A DNA stretch of 37,304 nucleotides, from positions 1-37,304 of the forward strand of contig JAGXKG010000018.1 of assembly GCA_018335335.1 (NCBI GenBank), written 5' to 3'. Source of the DNA: Candidatus Thorarchaeota archaeon (GTDB lineage Archaea > Asgardarchaeota > Thorarchaeia > Thorarchaeales > Thorarchaeaceae). Both the position numbers and the translations under genes were made by a program. Shown here in pieces: positions 6,144-37,304 of the stretch. Position 1 is the first letter of the stretch. Each line of letters starts with the position of its first letter. The notes under the pieces were generated by a model. It saw only the letters and a list, made by a program, of their open reading frames with translations. It was not told the origin of the DNA and did no database searches.

Positions 6144-7055
6144 CTACTCCTCTTCCTTAGTTTCTTCAGTAGATGGATCGAGTTCATCTAGCTCCTCGAG
6201 CTCTTCCAGGGTGCTCTCGGTTTCTGCTACTGTTGGTTCTTCATCTTTTTCTTCTTCAGCAGATTCGGTTTGTTCTTCCTCATGAACTTCTTGAGCTGGC
6301 TCTTCTTCTACCAGCTCCAGCTCGTCAAGTTCTTCAAGTTCACGTAATTCTTCAAGGTCAGTGATACCTTCAGGCACCTCTTCAACTGCTTCTTCCTCTT
6401 CTTCTTCCTTTTCTTCTTCAGGTTCGGCAAGAAGACGCGGTTCTTCTTTCTCCCTGTCTTTTGGTTCTTTAACGTGAATTCTACCAGGGATTTTGGTGTC
6501 TGCTTTCATGATTCTAACTTTGATTCCAATTGATCCTGGTTTCAGAATCGCAATATCATCAGCTTCGTCAACGAACGCTCTGGCGGGTTCACCCGTTTTT
6601 GTGATGGTTCCTTTTCGGAACTTCTGGTAGCGACCACGCCTGCTTGATAGCTTGCCCTTAACAATAATCTCACAGCCCTCGGCTCCAGCCCGCATAATCC
6701 TGTTGATGATCCAGTAGACCATTCTTCTGAATCTAACCCCACGCTCCATTTGCCTTGCAATTCTGGAGGCCATCACCTGAGCGTTGAGCCATGGGTTTTC
6801 TATTTCGCTAACCTCAACTTGCGGGTTGTCTAGCATGAACTGTGTTTCGAGCGTATACGTTAATTCTCGAACATTTGATCCTCGCCGACCAATCACAACA
6901 CCCGGTCGTGAGGCGTAAATGATGATATCAGTTCTCATGGGTCCTTCCTTGATTTCAAGACCCCCATATCCAGCTGTGTTCAGCTCACGGCTTAGAAACT
7001 CGTCAATGGTGAGTTTCTTCACGTTCTGCTCGATGAAATGTTTGATCGCCGACAT
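6144..7055 (-). CDS. rps3: Small ribosomal subunit protein S3 (uS3) with long acidic C-terminal tail
   Basis: S3 forms part of the mRNA entry channel of the 30S subunit. The open frame runs upstream into L22, but the ATG at 7055, two bases downstream of the end of the L22 stop, gives the expected N-terminus MSAIKHFIEQNVKKLTIDEF. The KH domain is clear (RPGVVIGRRGSNVRELT, about residues 49-65), followed by the C-terminal S3 domain with RAGAEGCEIIVKGKLSSRRG and GSIGIKVRIM. From about residue 195 to 303 the protein is a Glu-rich, low-complexity tail with repeated LEELDEL-like units. Archaeal S3 usually ends at 200-250 aa. The tail is likely flexible; its function is unknown. Confidence 0.95.
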   Translation of the reverse strand: MSAIKHFIEQNVKKLTIDEFLSRELNTAGYGGLEIKEGPMRTDIIIYASRPGVVIGRRGSNVRELTYTLETQFMLDNPQVEVSEIENPWLNAQVMASRIARQMERGVRFRRMVYWIINRIMRAGAEGCEIIVKGKLSSRRGRYQKFRKGTITKTGEPARAFVDEADDIAILKPGSIGIKVRIMKADTKIPGRIHVKEPKDREKEEPRLLAEPEEEKEEEEEEAVEEVPEGITDLEELRELEELDELELVEEEPAQEVHEEEQTESAEEEKDEEPTVAETESTLEELEELDELDPSTEETKEEE

Positions 7056-15715: not shown

Positions 15716-17680
15716 TCAGTCTTTGGCTGTAAGATACTCATCTATCATAGCCGAAATTTGTCCGTCGGTATAGTGCTGTGAGGTTATAGCTCCGTTTGGA
15801 CATGCTGCCGTACAGGTTCCACAGCCTTTGCAGAGTGCAGGATTCACTTCTGCGTGGTTTCTTTCATTTGCTGCTATCGCATTGTACGGACAAACTGAAA
15901 TGCACATGTGGCAGCCTGCACATTTGTCTTCATCAACAACGGAGTAGTATGGCTCTAGGGTTATCTTACCCCTTCCCATAAGCGCCATTGCCCCAGAAGC
16001 TGCTCCTTTTGCCTGTGCTACCGTATCTGGAATGTCTTTTGGTCCCTGTGCCATCCCTGCAATGAAAACCCCCTCACCAAACGTCTCCACGGGACGCAGT
16101 TTCGGATGTGCTTCAAGAAGGAATCCATCGGGCGATCTACTCAGGTTTAGCACCTTGGCGACATTGTCTACGGATTGTGGTGCGACGACACCCGTTGATA
16201 GGACTACCAGATCGACTTCCTCGAGTTCCATTGGTTTGCTGAGAAGAGTGTCTTCACCCCGAACTATCAGGTTGTAAGTCCTATCATCTTGCTGAATCTC
16301 TCCAACACGCCCACGGATGAAATTCACCCCTGCTTCAGCAGTTTCTTCATAGAATTCTTCATAACCTTTTCCAAAGGTTCGAAGGTCGATATAGAAGATG
16401 TATATGTCAGCTCCGGTTTTGTCTCTAAGCATCCGTGCCTGCTTGATAGCAGTCATACAGCAAACTCGAGAGCAGTATTGGTTTGTTTGTTGATCCCGAC
16501 TACCGACGCACTGGATATAGACAATCTTCTCTGGCTCAGCCAAGTCAGATGGCCGGACAACATGTCCCTGGGTGGGACCTGAGGAGCTTAGCATCCGCTC
16601 GACTTCCATGATATTGACAACATTCGGAAACTCCAGATAGCCATATTCCTGCTTCTCAGTAGCATCGAATACACTGTATCCCGTTGCTACGATTATGGTT
16701 CCTACCGTAAACTCAATCAGTCTCTCTTTGTCATCGTAGTTGATAGCTTCGGCTTCGCATTCATTCTGACACTTTCCACATCTCACGACATCTACTCCCA
16801 GACAGCTATCCATATCTAGAATGTATGCCGAAGGCACTGCTTGTGCGAAGGGAACATAAATCGCATTCCTATATGTTAGATTCGCATCAAAATCTGCTGG
16901 AACATCAACTGGACAAACATCCGCACAATCCCCGCATGAGGTACATTTCTCAACATCTACATATCTTGGCTTTTGCTTCACAGTTACGTCGAAGTTGCCT
17001 ACATAACCATCAACCTTCTCAACTTCAGCCATCGTAATCAGTTCGATGTTCGGGTGTGCCTCTACCTCTGCCATTCTGGGTGTGAGAATGCAGGAAGAAC
17101 AATCAAGCGTCGGAAAAGTCTTATCGATTCTTGCCATATTTCCGCCAATACTAGGTTCTTTTTCAATCAAGTAGACCGTGAATCCACCATTGGCTAGATC
17201 TAGGGCGGCTGATATCCCGGCGATGCCGGCTCCAACGACCATTGTCGATTTCTCGATTTCGACCTCGGGCTCTTCCAATGGTTCAAGAAGTCTATCTCTG
17301 GCTATGGCCATTCTCACGAGATCTATAGCTTTCTCTGTTGCAGCTTCGGGTTCATCAGCATGTATCCAACTATTATGTTCCCGAATATTCGCTATTTCCA
17401 GTTTGTAAGGATTGAGACCTGCGTTTCTCATGGTCTCCCTAAAAGTACGTTCGTGCATTCTTGGAGAACACGCTGCTATGACAACCCGGTCAAGCCGCTC
17501 TTCCTTTATCCGGTCTGTGATGATTTGTTGTCCTGGCTTAGAGCAAACATACTTGTAGTCTTCAGCGTGGACTACATTTGGTAGATCCTTGACTTCCTCT
17601 ACGACCTTCTCAACGTCCACAACACCGGCAATGTTGCTGCCACAATGGCAAATGAATACTCCAATTCTCTTCTCAGACAT
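15716..17680 (-). CDS. hdrA: Heterodisulfide reductase subunit A-like flavin/iron-sulfur protein (HdrA)
   Basis: HdrA is the FAD-containing, electron-bifurcating hub of cytosolic heterodisulfide reductase complexes. The 654-aa product has the N-terminal domain with FICHCGSN, an FAD-binding GAGIAGISAALDL (about residues 150-162), LDCSSCILTPRM (Cys194, Cys197), an inserted ferredoxin domain with CTSCGDCADVCP and CGKCQNEC, and a C-terminal pair CAGCHMCISVCP and CKGCGTCTAACP. The ATG at 17680 is chosen because GAGGAG stands 7 bases before it; the frame reaches back to 17728. No HdrB, HdrC or MvhD gene is adjacent, so partners are encoded elsewhere. It may work with a hydrogenase, consistent with hypD nearby. 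Confidence 0.94.
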   Translation of the reverse strand: MSEKRIGVFICHCGSNIAGVVDVEKVVEEVKDLPNVVHAEDYKYVCSKPGQQIITDRIKEERLDRVVIAACSPRMHERTFRETMRNAGLNPYKLEIANIREHNSWIHADEPEAATEKAIDLVRMAIARDRLLEPLEEPEVEIEKSTMVVGAGIAGISAALDLANGGFTVYLIEKEPSIGGNMARIDKTFPTLDCSSCILTPRMAEVEAHPNIELITMAEVEKVDGYVGNFDVTVKQKPRYVDVEKCTSCGDCADVCPVDVPADFDANLTYRNAIYVPFAQAVPSAYILDMDSCLGVDVVRCGKCQNECEAEAINYDDKERLIEFTVGTIIVATGYSVFDATEKQEYGYLEFPNVVNIMEVERMLSSSGPTQGHVVRPSDLAEPEKIVYIQCVGSRDQQTNQYCSRVCCMTAIKQARMLRDKTGADIYIFYIDLRTFGKGYEEFYEETAEAGVNFIRGRVGEIQQDDRTYNLIVRGEDTLLSKPMELEEVDLVVLSTGVVAPQSVDNVAKVLNLSRSPDGFLLEAHPKLRPVETFGEGVFIAGMAQGPKDIPDTVAQAKGAASGAMALMGRGKITLEPYYSVVDEDKCAGCHMCISVCPYNAIAANERNHAEVNPALCKGCGTCTAACPNGAITSQHYTDGQISAMIDEYLTAKD

Positions 17681-17790
17681 CGCATTCTCCTCGTGTGCGT
17701 ATGGCGAAGTTCTGGTACGAGCAGACATTATCTTCCAATCATGTCGCTATCTTGCCACTTCCAGATTATCAGCGTTGGATTGACTTTAGA

Positions 17791-29830: not shown

Positions 29831-30847
29831 TTGTCCCGTCTTGATGATATCGTGGACATGCTGCTATCATTCAACGGTATCTCTCGAAAATTCGTGCTTC
29901 CCAGCATAATCAGTCGTCTTCGAAAATCTTCTTACAACGGTGATTTCCCGCATACGCTAGGTGAGGATTCAGCTGCAATAGAGACTAGCTGTGATGAATA
30001 CGTTCTCTTGACTATTGATTCCATTGTTGAAGAATTGTGTCTTTACCATCCTCGAGCAGCTGGCTTCAACGCTATTTTGGCAAATATAATGGATATCTAC
30101 GCAGCAGGGGGTAAACCCACATCACTGGCTGTTGCCTTGTCTTATTCCGATGAAGAAGTGGGCGAGGAATTACTTGAGGGACTTATTGATGGGTCACACA
30201 AGTTCAGAATCCCTCTTGTCCGAGGCCATACTAATTCGCAGTCTCAATCAACTTACGTTGTTGGATCTGCTACTGGGACCGTAGAGAAATCGAACCTATT
30301 GACAGCAGGCGGTGCTGAGTCTGGCGACTATTTGTTTCTGCTTTTCGACAAAAATGGTAAGGTCGGAGAACACTATAAGCTAGGCTGGGATTCAGTGACT
30401 GAACAAGATTCGGATGCAGTTATCCAACGCCTATCTACAATGAATCAACTTGCTGAGCTTCACTTAGTGCATGCATCCAAGGATGTGTCAACGGCTGGAA
30501 TTGTAGGGACTGCAGGCATGCTCCTGGAATATTCTGGGAAAGGAGGATACATAGACCTTGATGCAGTAGAATCGGGGATTCCTAGTATGGTTTCTCTTGA
30601 AGATTGGCTGAGGATGTATATCTCACTTGGCTTTCTGATTGCAGTGAGTCCAGAGAATCATTCCAGAGTGTCGGAAATATGCACAAAGCACGGCATGGAG
30701 CAAGCAATCGTGGGACAAGTTGATGATACTGAAACGCTTACGCTTCGGTTGGCCAATTGTGAAAAAGCGATTTTCGATTTCTCTGAGGGACCAGTCCTTA
30801 CTCCAGAAAACAGACTCCAGAATGATCGATTTTCAGAGATAGAGTGA
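29831..30847 (+). CDS. PurM-like (AIR synthase-related) protein
   Basis: The 338-aa product belongs to the PurM/SelD/HypE/ThiL superfamily of ATP-dependent enzymes. GEDSAAIE near residue 44 is the glycine/Asp ATP motif; LLTIDSIVEEL, NAILANIMDIYAAGGKPTSL (about residues 80-99) and the later GHTNSQSQSTYVVGSATGTV are family segments. It most resembles the archaeal AIR-synthase-related group that includes methanogenesis marker 2. It lacks the catalytic Cys/Sec region of SelD and the C-terminal Cys of HypE. The substrate is unknown. The TTG start has GAGAGG about 6 bases upstream. Confidence 0.8.
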   Translation: MSRLDDIVDMLLSFNGISRKFVLPSIISRLRKSSYNGDFPHTLGEDSAAIETSCDEYVLLTIDSIVEELCLYHPRAAGFNAILANIMDIYAAGGKPTSLAVALSYSDEEVGEELLEGLIDGSHKFRIPLVRGHTNSQSQSTYVVGSATGTVEKSNLLTAGGAESGDYLFLLFDKNGKVGEHYKLGWDSVTEQDSDAVIQRLSTMNQLAELHLVHASKDVSTAGIVGTAGMLLEYSGKGGYIDLDAVESGIPSMVSLEDWLRMYISLGFLIAVSPENHSRVSEICTKHGMEQAIVGQVDDTETLTLRLANCEKAIFDFSEGPVLTPENRLQNDRFSEIE

Positions 30848-30868: not shown

Positions 30869-31144
30869 ATGCCTGCGAGAGCGGAAATCATTATAATGAC
30901 ATCCGAGCTTGGCCATTCAGAAGTGACAAATTTGGCTGATAAGACATGCAGCATCGTGGGTTGTGACAAGTCCGTCAAGCGATCCTTTCCAACGAAGCGA
31001 ATAGCTAACAGTATAAGGAAGGCAGGATTAGAAATGGAAACTTCTCGCTATAGGCGTACGTATCTGTGCCGAAGGCACTGGAAAATTGTAAAAAAGGAAT
31101 TCAAAAAGAAGCGAGATGTTGAACGTCTTCGATGGGGCCCCTAA
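30869..31144 (+). CDS. Small basic protein with putative Cys/His zinc site
   Basis: The 91-aa product (82 aa from the ATG at 30896) has CSIVGC around residue 27-32 and CRRH near residue 67, a possible Cys3His zinc site, in a strongly basic background ending KKEFKKKRDVERLRWGP. Such small basic zinc proteins often bind RNA or ribosomes, but no family was recognised. It follows the PurM-like gene by 21 bases. Either ATG could be the start; the second has GCGGAA upstream. Confidence 0.7.
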   Translation: MPARAEIIIMTSELGHSEVTNLADKTCSIVGCDKSVKRSFPTKRIANSIRKAGLEMETSRYRRTYLCRRHWKIVKKEFKKKRDVERLRWGP

Positions 31145-33277: not shown

Positions 33278-33311
33278 TGAAGACACTCACTGATTTCTTG
33301 GGAGTGTGACC

Positions 33312-34706
33312 TTGCAAAACCTGATTCCCGTACATGTGGGGCTTGTAGGCCACATAGACCATGGTAAAACAGAATTGGCGAAATGTCTTAGTGACAAAGT
33401 ATTCACAGCTGGCCTTGATAAGCATCCCCAGTCAAAAAAGCGTGGAATTACAATTGATTTGGGCTTCAGCATGTTTTCTTCCGACAAATACCTTGTAACC
33501 CTTGTTGATGCTCCTGGTCATGCTGACTTGATTCGAAGTGTCGTAGCTGGTGCCAGTATTATTGATGCCGCCATTCTGACAGTTGCAGCTGATGAAGGCG
33601 TGCAGATACAGACCATTGAACATGCCACCGTCCTCAAGGCGATGGGTATAGACAAATTGTTTGTTGCCATTACGAAAACCGATCTTGTTAAAAACGACCA
33701 AGTGAAGCAGGTTTTAAGGGAGGTTAGAGGAATCGCTAAGCGATTGAAACTAGAACCAGTTGATTATATCCCTGTCTCTGCGGAAACGGGTGCTGGCATC
33801 CAGAAGATGCGTGAGATACTGTTAGATTCACTTACTCCCCCCGATCGAGAGGATGAAGGCCCCCTTCGCATACCTATAGATCACGCATTTCCTGTTACGG
33901 GTCATGGAACTGTATTGACTGGCACTATTCTTAGGGGCTCTCTATCTACTGGTGATGCAGTACAGTTGATGCCAGGCGGAAGTCGAGCAACAGTACGCAC
34001 GATTCAGACCTTCGGACAGGAACGAGATTCTGCAACCGCAGGTGATCGCGTGGGTGTGAATGCTCCAGCATTTGATCATGACAGAATTGAGCGTGGAAAC
34101 TATCTCTGTACTCCTGATAGCATGAAGACTGCAGAATCCCTTCTAATAGGGGTTGAACTCAATCCAGGGTATCAGGGCCGTATTACTGCAAGGATGGTTG
34201 TGAAGGCAACGGTTGGAATGTCGAGCGTTACTGCAGAAATCGTGCCTTTCAGAAAAATCAATGGGCGGAAAATTCCGCTAAAAGAACCTGAGAAGCGAGT
34301 CTTCGAAGCTGCGCTGTTGTTGAAGGAGAAAGTGCCTGCAGAGATAGGAAATCGTGTTTTACTCATGCGAACTGATATGCCTGTAACAAGCATGCGCATC
34401 GTTGGCTGTGGAATCATTAATGACATTGTGAGGATAGTAACACTGGACCAAGTTAGAACGAAACATGGAGAAATCAGTAGAATACGAGATGAGAACGTAC
34501 TGATAGAGGGCTTAGCCCGGACCAAAAAACGAGCACAATCATTGAAGGGGCGAACAGTTCATACTAAAAATGGAGTTAAAGGAAAAATCTTGGACTCGTT
34601 TGGAACTCGTGGTGTAGTAGTAGGGAAGTTTGATGACGAAGTCAGAATCGAGGAGGAAATTGTGTTGGAGGACCATATAGAGGAGGAACACCGTTTTGGC
34701 AGATGA
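33312..34706 (+). CDS. selB: Selenocysteine-specific elongation factor SelB (EF-Sec)
   Basis: This GTPase carries selenocysteinyl-tRNA to the ribosome at recoded UGA codons. The 464-aa product has G1 GHIDHGKT (residues 13-20), a switch I with DKHPQSKKRGITIDLGFSMF, which is the pattern separating archaeal/eukaryotic EF-Sec from EF1A and aIF2-gamma, G3 VDAPGHADL, G4 TKTD and G5 SAETGAG. Domains II and III follow, and the C-terminal part (residues about 385-464, with TKKRAQSLKGRTVHTKNGVK) is the short EF-Sec domain IV rather than the bacterial winged helices. The start is TTG 33312 with GGGAG 7 bases ahead; GTG 33306 is possible. It overlaps sepSecS by 11 bases. Confidence 0.93.
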   Translation: MQNLIPVHVGLVGHIDHGKTELAKCLSDKVFTAGLDKHPQSKKRGITIDLGFSMFSSDKYLVTLVDAPGHADLIRSVVAGASIIDAAILTVAADEGVQIQTIEHATVLKAMGIDKLFVAITKTDLVKNDQVKQVLREVRGIAKRLKLEPVDYIPVSAETGAGIQKMREILLDSLTPPDREDEGPLRIPIDHAFPVTGHGTVLTGTILRGSLSTGDAVQLMPGGSRATVRTIQTFGQERDSATAGDRVGVNAPAFDHDRIERGNYLCTPDSMKTAESLLIGVELNPGYQGRITARMVVKATVGMSSVTAEIVPFRKINGRKIPLKEPEKRVFEAALLLKEKVPAEIGNRVLLMRTDMPVTSMRIVGCGIINDIVRIVTLDQVRTKHGEISRIRDENVLIEGLARTKKRAQSLKGRTVHTKNGVKGKILDSFGTRGVVVGKFDDEVRIEEEIVLEDHIEEEHRFGR

Positions 34707-36027
34707 GCCTATTGACCGATTTGAAGCACTCATACCTGAGAACATGAAAGAACGGGGTCGAATTACACTTGAGGCATTGGTTTCACCAATTCGTGATGTA
34801 GTAAATCGAAGACAATTCCCCAAAGAACCGCTCTCAGAAGAACAGGTCGATTTACTGCTACGACTACTTTCATCAATGGATACAGACAAGGATCCAGATG
34901 CAGCAAGAGTGGGTGAACGAGAAGGAAGGACCGCCAGTCCACTGATACAAAAGTTGGCGGCAGGCTTTAATCATGGCATTGGGCGCAGTGGCCACGTGAC
35001 AGCTCCTCAGCCAAAGGCTCCGGGCGCATCTACAATGCAGAGAATAGCCAATTCTGTTGCCCTTGACGCCATTCGTGAGCTAGGGTTACCCAATGCCCGT
35101 GCTGGTTTGGTTACTCCCCTTTCTACCGGCATGACATTAGCGCTGGTATTCGGGGCCTTACGAAGGGAGATGGGCACACGAAACGTCATTTATCCACGTA
35201 TTGATCATACATCCCCGAAGCGTGCAATTCAGTTTGCAGGACTAAACGAGAAGACCATACCCACTGTTCTGGATGGAGATGCAGTTGTCCCCGACATGAA
35301 CGAATTTGAGAAGTGTCTTCAGGATGTAGAAAACGCAGCCGTCTTGGCAACAACTACATTCTTCCCCCCACGTGAATCCGATCCTATCAAACCAATTGCC
35401 AAGCTATGTCAAGAAGAACAGACCCCTCTGGTGATAAACAATGCATACGGCGTTCAGTCGAAGCGTATTATGAGCGAGATTCGTTCTGCAATTGACGCTG
35501 GCCGGGTGGATGCAGTTGTTCAGAGCAGTGACAAGAACTTCTTGGTGCCTGTTGGTGGCTCAATTCTCGTATCCCCTCGCAATGACATCATTGAACAGGC
35601 AGCTGAAACGTATGCTGGAAGAGCAACGGCAGCTCCAGTCGTTCAGACCTTGGCTGCGTTGTTAGTTCTGGGATTGGAGGGATATACCAAGTTACAGGAG
35701 ACACAGGTGAGCAATCTCAATTTTCTGGAGGATGAGATGGCTTCCATAGCTGATTCTGTTGATGAGCGTTTATTGTCGATTTGGAACCCAGTAGCTTGTG
35801 CGATGACCATTGACCGTTTTGACGCGAAAGAGCTTGGAGGTCGGCTCTATAATAGAAGGGTCACCGGTCCGCGAGCGGTACCCAAGAACGGGAAGGGCGC
35901 TTCAATAGATGATTACCCCCACAGTTACTTGGTGATGAATGCCGCCATCGGAGCATGTCGTACGGACGTCAAACAAGCGACCACTAGACTATATAAGGAA
36001 TTAACCGAATGGTTAATGAAGGGTTGA
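34696..36027 (+). CDS. sepSecS: O-phosphoseryl-tRNA(Sec):selenocysteinyl-tRNA synthase (SepSecS)
   Basis: SepSecS converts phosphoseryl-tRNA(Sec), using selenophosphate, into selenocysteinyl-tRNA. The 443-aa PLP enzyme has the family motifs REGR (residues 75-78), GRSGH (96-100), PKAPGASTMQRI, LSTGMTLAL and the PLP lysine Lys280 in VVQSSDKNFLVPVGGSI, plus NNAYGVQS (249-255). The size is normal. Starting from a TTG, it is preceded by AGGAGG, 9 bases away, inside the end of selB, so translation is coupled. It confirms the archaeal/eukaryotic Sec route rather than bacterial SelA. Confidence 0.95.
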   Translation: MADEPIDRFEALIPENMKERGRITLEALVSPIRDVVNRRQFPKEPLSEEQVDLLLRLLSSMDTDKDPDAARVGEREGRTASPLIQKLAAGFNHGIGRSGHVTAPQPKAPGASTMQRIANSVALDAIRELGLPNARAGLVTPLSTGMTLALVFGALRREMGTRNVIYPRIDHTSPKRAIQFAGLNEKTIPTVLDGDAVVPDMNEFEKCLQDVENAAVLATTTFFPPRESDPIKPIAKLCQEEQTPLVINNAYGVQSKRIMSEIRSAIDAGRVDAVVQSSDKNFLVPVGGSILVSPRNDIIEQAAETYAGRATAAPVVQTLAALLVLGLEGYTKLQETQVSNLNFLEDEMASIADSVDERLLSIWNPVACAMTIDRFDAKELGGRLYNRRVTGPRAVPKNGKGASIDDYPHSYLVMNAAIGACRTDVKQATTRLYKELTEWLMKG

Positions 36028-36041
36028 AGGAGGCTTCTCCT
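36028..36041 (+). promoter_or_regulatory. Small hairpin enclosing the ribosome binding site of the third Sec-operon gene
   Basis: Directly after the sepSecS stop, AGGAG (36028-36032) and CTCCT (36037-36041) form a 5-bp stem with a GCTT loop just before the ATG at 36044. The stem covers the only AGGAGG ribosome binding site, so pairing would lower initiation until ribosomes leaving sepSecS open it. Coupling is inferred. Confidence 0.35.
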
Positions 36042-36043
36042 AT

Positions 36044-36694
36044 ATGGAAGACTTGGAAAATCAGCCTAAGGTCAAGCGGACCATAACCTATGATCGTCCA
36101 CAATCCTCAACAATATTCAGGATTTCCTGGTACGCAATCGGTTTGAAACCCGGGGCGATGCTGAACGAATACAGTGAGGGAGAGGGCAAGCTGTTCAAGG
36201 GCAAGGCCATGTTTACTGTTCCTCTAGATGATACTAAGACGCAGGTTCGTTTGTGGGTGGAAGAAGCTCAGCGCTCTATCGAATTGACAGCTTGGGGTCC
36301 CGATAAGGAGATGTTGAATGACTACCTAGATGAAGTTGTTTCACGTTTGGAGACCTACATCGACAAGTACTCGGAGCTATCTAATGAAAATCGACAGAAA
36401 GTCCGCCGGGCACTAGTTGCAAAAACATGTTGGGACCGTGTGGTCTACGAGATTCTGAATAAGGCGCCACTTAGTTCCATCTATGTTCAAGTAGCTCATG
36501 GCAGAGAAATGATGATCAAAGCAACCGAGGGCGAGGATATTCATCCACTTGCTTTGACTACAAGCGGATGGTTGACAAAAATCGAAGAACTTCCTCAAGA
36601 TGAGCCTCCGCCATCAGATATTGCAGAGAACCTTGCCAAGAAAACAGTAGAATGGAAGAAAGAAACTCACGGAGTCATAGGAAACTATCTCTAG
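36044..36694 (+). CDS. Unknown protein encoded in the Sec operon
   Basis: The 216-aa product begins MEDLENQPKVKRTITYDRPQ. Its N-terminal half is strand-rich (STIFRISWYAIGLKPGAML, KAMFTVPLDDTKTQVRLWVE), followed by a long helix around residues 85-130 (LNDYLDEVVSRLETYIDKYS) and a C-terminal mixed region with SSIYVQVAHGREMMIKATEG. No domain was recognised: no P-loop (so not PSTK), no L7Ae/SBP2 motif. It follows sepSecS by 16 bases and precedes tRNA-Sec, so a role in Sec synthesis, tRNA handling or SECIS reading is suggested by position alone. Confidence 0.75.
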   Translation: MEDLENQPKVKRTITYDRPQSSTIFRISWYAIGLKPGAMLNEYSEGEGKLFKGKAMFTVPLDDTKTQVRLWVEEAQRSIELTAWGPDKEMLNDYLDEVVSRLETYIDKYSELSNENRQKVRRALVAKTCWDRVVYEILNKAPLSSIYVQVAHGREMMIKATEGEDIHPLALTTSGWLTKIEELPQDEPPPSDIAENLAKKTVEWKKETHGVIGNYL

Positions 36695-36744
36695 ATGACT
36701 TGGTATCACTGAACACTCCTCAGAAATCATTTGTTACTACCCGG

Positions 36745-36756
36745 GGACTTAAGTCC
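36745..36756 (+). promoter_or_regulatory. Palindromic TATA-like element ahead of tRNA-Sec
   Basis: GGACTTAAGTCC is a 12-bp perfect palindrome with an AT core. Its centre is about 40 bases before the tRNA 5' end, so it could be the TATA box for tRNA-Sec with a transcription start near 36776. Transcription from the operon promoter is an alternative. Confidence 0.35.
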
Positions 36757-36789
36757 AAATCCAGCTGAATTCTAGCTTGATTCAAACGT

Positions 36790-36881
36790 GGCCCCCTCTA
36801 GGGACGGTGGACTGTCCCCGTGGGCTTCAAACCCATGAGTTCGATATGAACTAAGAGTTCGATTCTCTGGGGGGGCCGCCA
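36790..36881 (+). tRNA. tRNA-Sec (anticodon UCA)
   Basis: The sequence folds as an archaeal selenocysteine tRNA. The acceptor stem has 9 bp (36790-36798 with 36869-36877, one G-U pair). The D stem has 7 bp (36801-36807 with 36812-36818) with a 4-base TGGA loop. The anticodon stem has 5 bp plus a possible C-G pair, and the loop is CTTCAAA with anticodon TCA at 36827-36829. A long variable arm (AGTTC-GATAT-GAACT, 36838-36852) follows, then a 4-bp T stem (AGAG/CTCT) and a 7-base loop TTCGATT. The discriminator is G at 36878 and CCA (36879-36881) is encoded. The 9+4 form and 7-bp D stem are specific to archaeal tRNA-Sec. Confidence 0.95.
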
Positions 36882-36918: not shown

Positions 36919-37304
36919 ATGAGAACCGAAGGAACCAGAAATCCTCGTGACAGCTATTCACCTTTTGACAGACTGGCTGAGAGATATGATTCCTGGTTTG
37001 AAGAAGCTGGCCACTAATTTTTTCTACTGAAGTCAGGGCTTTCAGAATGCTTCTTCCAATGTTACCTGAACCATGGCTTGAAGTAGGGGTCGGAAGCGGA
37101 CGTTTTGCTCGTGCATTGGGAATTGAAGTTGGTATTGATCCCTCTAGGGAATTACTCGAGATGGCGAAACAAAGGGACATTAATATCGCTCTTGCACGGG
37201 GCGAGGATGGGGTATTCATGAATGGAAGCTTTGGCACCGTGTTTTTGATTGTCACTATCTGCTTTTTGGAGAATCCCATGAAAGTGTTAACCGAAATCAA
37301 CCGA
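36919..37304 (+). pseudogene. SAM-dependent methyltransferase gene with apparent frameshift, partial
   Basis: From the ATG at 36919 the frame reads MRTEGTRNPRD, then FDRLAERYDSWFEEAGH and stops at TAA (37015). The continuation typical of class I methyltransferases is in a different frame immediately after: LIFSTEVRAFRMLLP, LEVGVGSGRFARALGIEVG (SAM-binding motif I) and DPSRELLEMAKQRDI, still open at base 37304. One missing base near 37011-37014 (a C in GGCCAC) would join them as one protein. This may be a sequencing error, a true pseudogene, or a recoded gene. The stop is TAA, so selenocysteine is not the explanation. The C-terminus lies outside the window. Confidence 0.7.

Follow-up and report, generated by a model that had tools for sequence, protein, structure and literature searches.

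A typical archaeal selenocysteine cluster in a Thorarchaeote, with a third gene of probably Sec-independent function

The DNA considered here (the window) is a contig of 37,304 nucleotides from a Candidatus Thorarchaeota archaeon (assembly GCA_018335335.1, contig JAGXKG010000018.1), which is contig C18 of the metagenome-assembled genome (MAG) G000 (2.94 Mb, 97% complete), and it carries a gene cluster for the decoding of selenocysteine (Sec). The cluster comprises four features, all on the + strand: selB (33306..34706), encoding the archaeal Sec-specific elongation factor of 466 amino acids; sepSecS (34696..36027), encoding the 443 amino acid O-phosphoseryl-tRNA(Sec) selenium transferase; a gene for a 216 amino acid protein that matches the NCBIfam profile NF045535, named Sel_Asgard (36044..36694); and tRNA-Sec (36790..36881), with a UCA anticodon and an encoded 3′ GCCA end. 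All four lie where an earlier note on this DNA had placed them, with an overlap of exactly 11 nucleotides between selB and sepSecS and a gap of exactly 16 nucleotides between sepSecS and the third gene.

The identities that the earlier note had given to selB, sepSecS and tRNA-Sec are borne out by profile searches. SelB scores 263.6 bits with the NCBIfam profile TIGR00475 (cut-off 242) and matches Pfam aSelB_III at 2.5e-11, with a weak match to domain 4 of eEFSec, and scores far under the cut-offs for EF1A and aIF2-gamma set it apart from both of those factors. SepSecS scores 441 bits with TIGR03531 (cut-off 225) and matches Pfam SepSecS at 1e-111, and its pyridoxal phosphate lysine lies in the motif SSDKNFLVPVGG. 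The tRNA-Sec is called by ARAGORN with the anticodon tca and long acceptor and T arms, and it scores 57.1 bits (E 4e-9) with Rfam RF01852, over the gathering score of 47.

The earlier note had further proposed that Sec is decoded in this organism and that the genome encodes selenoproteins, and had taken the absence of PSTK, SelD and any selenoprotein candidate from the genome as what would speak against this. All three are present, on contigs C53, C51 and C59 respectively. The PSTK gene (C53:639-1346) scores 128.6 bits, which is under the curated cut-off of 290.5, but it is the top match, and PSTK is syntenic with the Sec cluster in the sister genome G219 and in other Thorarchaeota. In G219 the order past the cluster is tRNA-Sec, a methyltransferase gene, a TauE-like gene, and then PSTK and TFB on the opposite strand, which shows C53 to be the continuation of the cluster on C18. 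SelD scores 392 bits, over its cut-off, and is the Cys form (GMGCACK). The selD gene of C51 (locus L090, 4987-6582) also shares one open frame with an apparent C-terminal part of a cysteine desulfurase, and this frame is probably a NifS-SelD fusion.

The selenoprotein gene encodes VhuU and is a 52-codon open reading frame (C59:1086-1241) directly behind the gene for the hydrogenase large subunit. Its product reads RCYDC(UGA)LSCGAH around the in-frame UGA, which takes the place of the first Cys of the DPCxxC motif and which is conserved in about 40 Thorarchaeal loci. A Sec insertion sequence (SECIS) at C59:1046-1088 scores 42.7 bits, and the UGA stop of VhuU overlaps the AUGA of its hairpin (GGAUGA...GUAAA...CUGAC). 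The hairpin is of a type, AUGA_GA, that has been reported from the frhA genes of Asgard archaea (PMC11227280). Among 27 different sequences, two-sided changes are seen at all nine pairs of the stem (9/9), and the covariation score was equaled by none of 500 shuffles (0/500), with slid controls far worse. The genome encodes at least one selenoprotein, VhuU, and a covariance model search of G000 found exactly one copy of the VhuU-type SECIS. In several species the known core of the Thorarchaeal VhuU SECIS (G000:C59:1020-1110; locus L179) also appears to be framed by an additional hairpin on the 3′ side and by a closing helix (ACCAGC/GCTGGT). No UGA was seen in the copies of HdrA or FlpD/FrhD of G000 that were read, all of which are Cys forms, so the selenoproteome of this Thorarchaeote may be very small; these searches were made family by family and covered the VhuU type of SECIS. 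The HdrA gene in the window (15716-17728) is likewise a Cys form. Sec use has already been published for 77% of Thorarchaeia genomes (PMC11227280), so this part of the analysis is a confirmation, and the cluster is another case of a known type.

The third gene had been described as unknown, and this needs correction. It has no Pfam match over 36044-36694, but it belongs to an existing family: along its full length it matches NCBIfam NF045535, which bears the title "Sel_Asgard, putative selenocysteine system protein", with 232.5 bits against a cut-off of 132. The accession is not mentioned in the literature that was searched, and a Pfam scan of 22 members found no common known domain. Linkage of the family to Sec genes is strong. 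Among 228 Asgard genomes, a clear NF045535 occurs in 135, SepSecS in 133 and both in 119 (Fisher p 4e-30). For 112 of these 119, the first match that follows sepSecS on its strand is NF045535. The gene order of the window is seen again, identically, in dozens of Thorarchaeota contigs, so the cluster is not a chance arrangement. The layout had been thought possibly lineage-specific, and it proves less so than supposed, with the order sepSecS to NF045535 common to many Asgard families and the adjacency of selB variable.

The association of NF045535 with Sec nevertheless breaks down in both directions. In the family that carries our working label f12, all eight genomes (8/8) have NF045535 over cut-off, as does the closed 1.42-Mb genome G175, and no SepSecS, SelB or over-threshold tRNA-Sec was found in any of these; MAG incompleteness is hardly a plausible cause, since the absence holds in all eight f12 genomes and in the closed one. 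The ratio of nonsynonymous to synonymous substitution rates (dN/dS) is 0.03-0.09 in close f12 pairs, many other pairs having saturated dS, and it indicates strong purifying selection. Within the Thorarchaeota themselves, the flanking genes are still in place and NF045535 is intact in two contigs (L113 and L129) that have lost selB and PSTK. Directly upstream of NF045535 these contigs hold fossils of sepSecS, of about 55 codons in L113 (5764-5951; tblastn E 1e-8) and about 32 codons in L129 (1195-1290; 1e-5); L113 also has a decayed tRNA-Sec (6686-6772, 37.6 bits), and no tRNA-Sec was found in L129. The genomes of these contigs (G210 and G200, assigned by contig position) yielded no SelB, SepSecS or UGA-containing VhuU, and the two losses look independent, since Sec users separate them in the tree. 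L113 retains 59/59 and L129 56/59 of the alignment columns that Sec users conserve, which is no worse than the Sec users do themselves.

The converse case is the family labeled f27 (four genomes, two of them 100% complete), in which SepSecS is present in 4/4 genomes and SelB in three, and in which no NF045535 was found in any of the four (4/4), even with a diverse profile. Two of these genomes, G178 and G179, have a VhuU with UGA (YDCUIACSAH) that is followed by an AUGA-type SECIS-like hairpin. NF045535 is thus present without Sec, and Sec is present without NF045535, so the protein is not limited to Sec users, and decoding with a eukaryote-like SECIS does not require it. The proposal in the earlier note that all four features form one functional unit is accordingly not supported for the third gene, which is constrained in Sec-free Asgard lineages and missing from a family that bears Sec genes.

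An AlphaFold2 model of the NF045535 protein, built with 36 sequences (mean predicted local distance difference test score of 93.5, predicted template modeling score of 0.90) has two domains, a beta-alpha-beta4-alpha domain of appendage/TBP-like type (residues 9-111) and a helical bundle resembling the C-terminal domain of Vps28 (Vps28-C; residues 114-213). Foldseek gave no match to the model below 1e-3; among TBP-like folds it returned the AP2 alpha and beta2 appendages 2vj0, 1w80 and 2iv9 at E 0.05-0.12 with a template modeling (TM) score of about 0.3, and it returned the Vps28 C-terminal domain 2j9w with a target TM score of 0.72 at E 0.11. A second copy of the NF045535 region ends proteins of about 790 amino acids in several Asgard genomes (L073 3180-5558; L074 4500-6863; L086 3932-6295). 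These fusion proteins match PCI, E3_UFM1_ligase and DDRGK, and carry a zinc finger and a GAE-like domain, the latter upstream of the Vps28-C region, and their last 100 residues match Pfam VPS28 at about 1e-5. Their C-terminal stretch of about 200 residues aligns with NF045535 over its whole length (98.9% probability, E 3e-17), and a W-L-x-K-[IL] segment in the final helices can be matched to Vps28 in the alignment. As judged from their domain content, the fusions are a possible link between UFM1-ligase-like modules and those of the endosomal sorting complexes required for transport (ESCRT). Asgard proteins that pair appendage and Vps28-C domains have been described as likely ESCRT adaptors, in an account that does not mention selenocysteine (PMC10936438). 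The model and the fused homologs together suggest that NF045535 is most likely an appendage (TBP-like) domain joined to a Vps28-C-like bundle, an ESCRT-adaptor architecture.

We therefore favor, as the probable explanation, a typical Sec cluster of archaeal/eukaryotic type in which NF045535 is most likely an appendage and Vps28-C-like adaptor with a Sec-independent housekeeping role and not a dedicated Sec part. Several observations weigh against this. Adjacency to sepSecS as tight as that of NF045535 is usually read as functional coupling. The Sec losses in L113 and L129 are recent enough for fossils to remain, and the tRNA-Sec of f27 was not located at the search settings used. No single NF045535 member reaches Pfam Vps28, and the link to that domain runs through the fused intermediates and the Foldseek match, so the Vps28-C assignment is good but indirect. 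Finally, the window protein has a charge of -6 and an isoelectric point of 5.3, and NF045535 is acidic in Thorarchaeota generally, but some other families have basic versions of it.

NF045535 is an obvious candidate for the factor that binds the SECIS, since it is conserved in the Asgard Sec operon and named as a Sec-system protein, and since the archaeal SECIS-binding factor must exist but has not been identified (PMC11881835) and Asgard archaea are without SBP2 (PMC11227280). In Methanococcus maripaludis, a SECIS from a lokiarchaeon is reported to fail by itself (PMC11881835). NF045535 would on this account be the SECIS-binding or recoding factor of Asgard archaea and a functional analogue of SBP2, and the co-occurrence and adjacency figures, the family name and the operon position all speak for it. 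However, the gene is constrained in Sec-free genomes and is missing from f27 with its UGA-containing VhuU and AUGA-type hairpin; neither Pfam nor the AlphaFold2 model gives it an L7Ae or other RNA-binding domain, and the charge and isoelectric point of the Thorarchaeal protein argue against RNA binding. Having weighed the co-occurrence and adjacency data, the Sec-free genomes and the charge and fold of the protein, we rejected this as the main explanation and regard it as quite improbable. The two-way dissociation makes NF045535 probably the wrong candidate for the SECIS factor, and the family name should be softened. The principal competitor is a dual role, in which a general adaptor would also aid selenoprotein synthesis, perhaps as a scaffold that keeps SepSecS, SelB or the Vhu/Hdr complexes together. 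This accounts both for the linkage in many Asgard families and for retention after Sec loss, and the domains are of a protein-interaction type, but f27 uses Sec without the protein, and we consider a dual role unlikely, if still the best of the alternatives. A bolder form of it, in which an ESCRT-adaptor-type protein would physically tie selenoprotein synthesis or selenoenzyme complexes to the membrane and protein-sorting machinery of Asgard archaea and be kept for its second role after Sec loss, seems to us somewhat less likely again. The possibility that the Sec cluster of G000 is a non-functional relic would fit the finding of a single selenoprotein gene and the Cys forms of the SelD, HdrA and FrhD copies examined, but all machinery genes are intact, the UGA of VhuU is conserved across the Thorarchaeal loci, a covarying SECIS overlaps its stop, and true relics such as L113 look quite different; we give this explanation almost no weight.

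In this Thorarchaeote Sec is made and delivered by the established route. The tRNA-Sec is presumably charged with serine, PSTK and SepSecS turn Ser-tRNA-Sec into Sec-tRNA with selenophosphate from SelD, and SelB brings the Sec-tRNA to UGA codons marked by the eukaryote-like SECIS, with VhuU as at least one target. If the adaptor explanation is right, NF045535 would be a small, acidic, two-domain adaptor between proteins, whose task may plausibly be to bring a client to partners of ESCRT-II-like type. The NF045535 gene would have held its place after sepSecS from early in Asgard evolution, shared transcription being the probable reason, and would stay once the Sec genes go.

Two further genes of interest stand upstream of the cluster. 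The gene smZn (30869..31144, +) encodes a small and very basic (charge about +13) CxxxxC..CxxH zinc protein, and it is a neighbor of NF045535 both in lineages that use Sec and in those that do not, being its constant neighbor in Sec-free genomes. The smZn protein is no component of the Sec system, and its gene may be nearer than the Sec genes to the original context of NF045535. The smZn protein also shows a weak resemblance to the zinc finger of SAP30/SAP30L, of a eukaryotic histone-deacetylase complex, which supplies the top two PDB matches by sequence (E 0.01) and ranks 1 and 3 by predicted fold. Next to it, an AIR-synthase-like gene (29831..30847, +; Pfam AIRS/AIRS_C) of the PurM superfamily resembles methanogenesis marker 2 and is conserved near the cluster in several Asgard families. 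It was considered as an additional SelD and rejected, as it falls below the cut-offs for SelD and TIGR03267 and is retained in the Sec-loss contig L113. Ribosomal protein genes occupy the start of the contig (window 1-9000). On the 3′ side of tRNA-Sec, near the contig end, lies a methyltransferase gene (36919-37304) whose reading frame, compared with that of the intact gene of G219 (233 amino acids), is shifted by one base near 37016, and it is either a pseudogene or the product of an assembly error.

These results tie the NF045535 family to Asgard appendage/Vps28-C proteins. The Thorarchaeota that have lost Sec, in which L113 and L129 catch the loss in mid-process, and the f27 family are natural experiments that make these questions directly testable. 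A dual-role ESCRT adaptor, if true, would for the first time connect Sec translation with an ESCRT-like system.

Among known systems, the cluster compares most directly with the Asgard Sec system of archaeal/eukaryotic type (PMC11227280, PMC9723677), with which it shares SelB, SepSecS, PSTK, SelD, tRNA-Sec, a VhuU/FrhA-type selenoprotein and a eukaryote-like SECIS overlapping the UGA stop. There is no fundamental difference; here SelD is the Cys form, and our searches turned up a single selenoprotein. The NCBIfam name of NF045535 implies a Sec function, yet the family has over-cut-off members in Sec-free genomes and is missing from one Sec-using family. SBP2, the eukaryotic SECIS-binding protein 2, is comparable in that NF045535 would take the same conceptual place in a Sec operon, but NF045535 is without an L7Ae domain, has another fold, is acidic in Thorarchaeota and is absent from the Sec-using f27. 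A further likeness is to the Asgard appendage/Vps28-C multidomain proteins (PMC10936438), represented here by the PCI/UFL1/DDRGK fusions of about 790 amino acids, whose end is homologous along the full length of NF045535, though in NF045535 the two domains stand alone and the PCI, zinc finger and Ig-like parts are missing.

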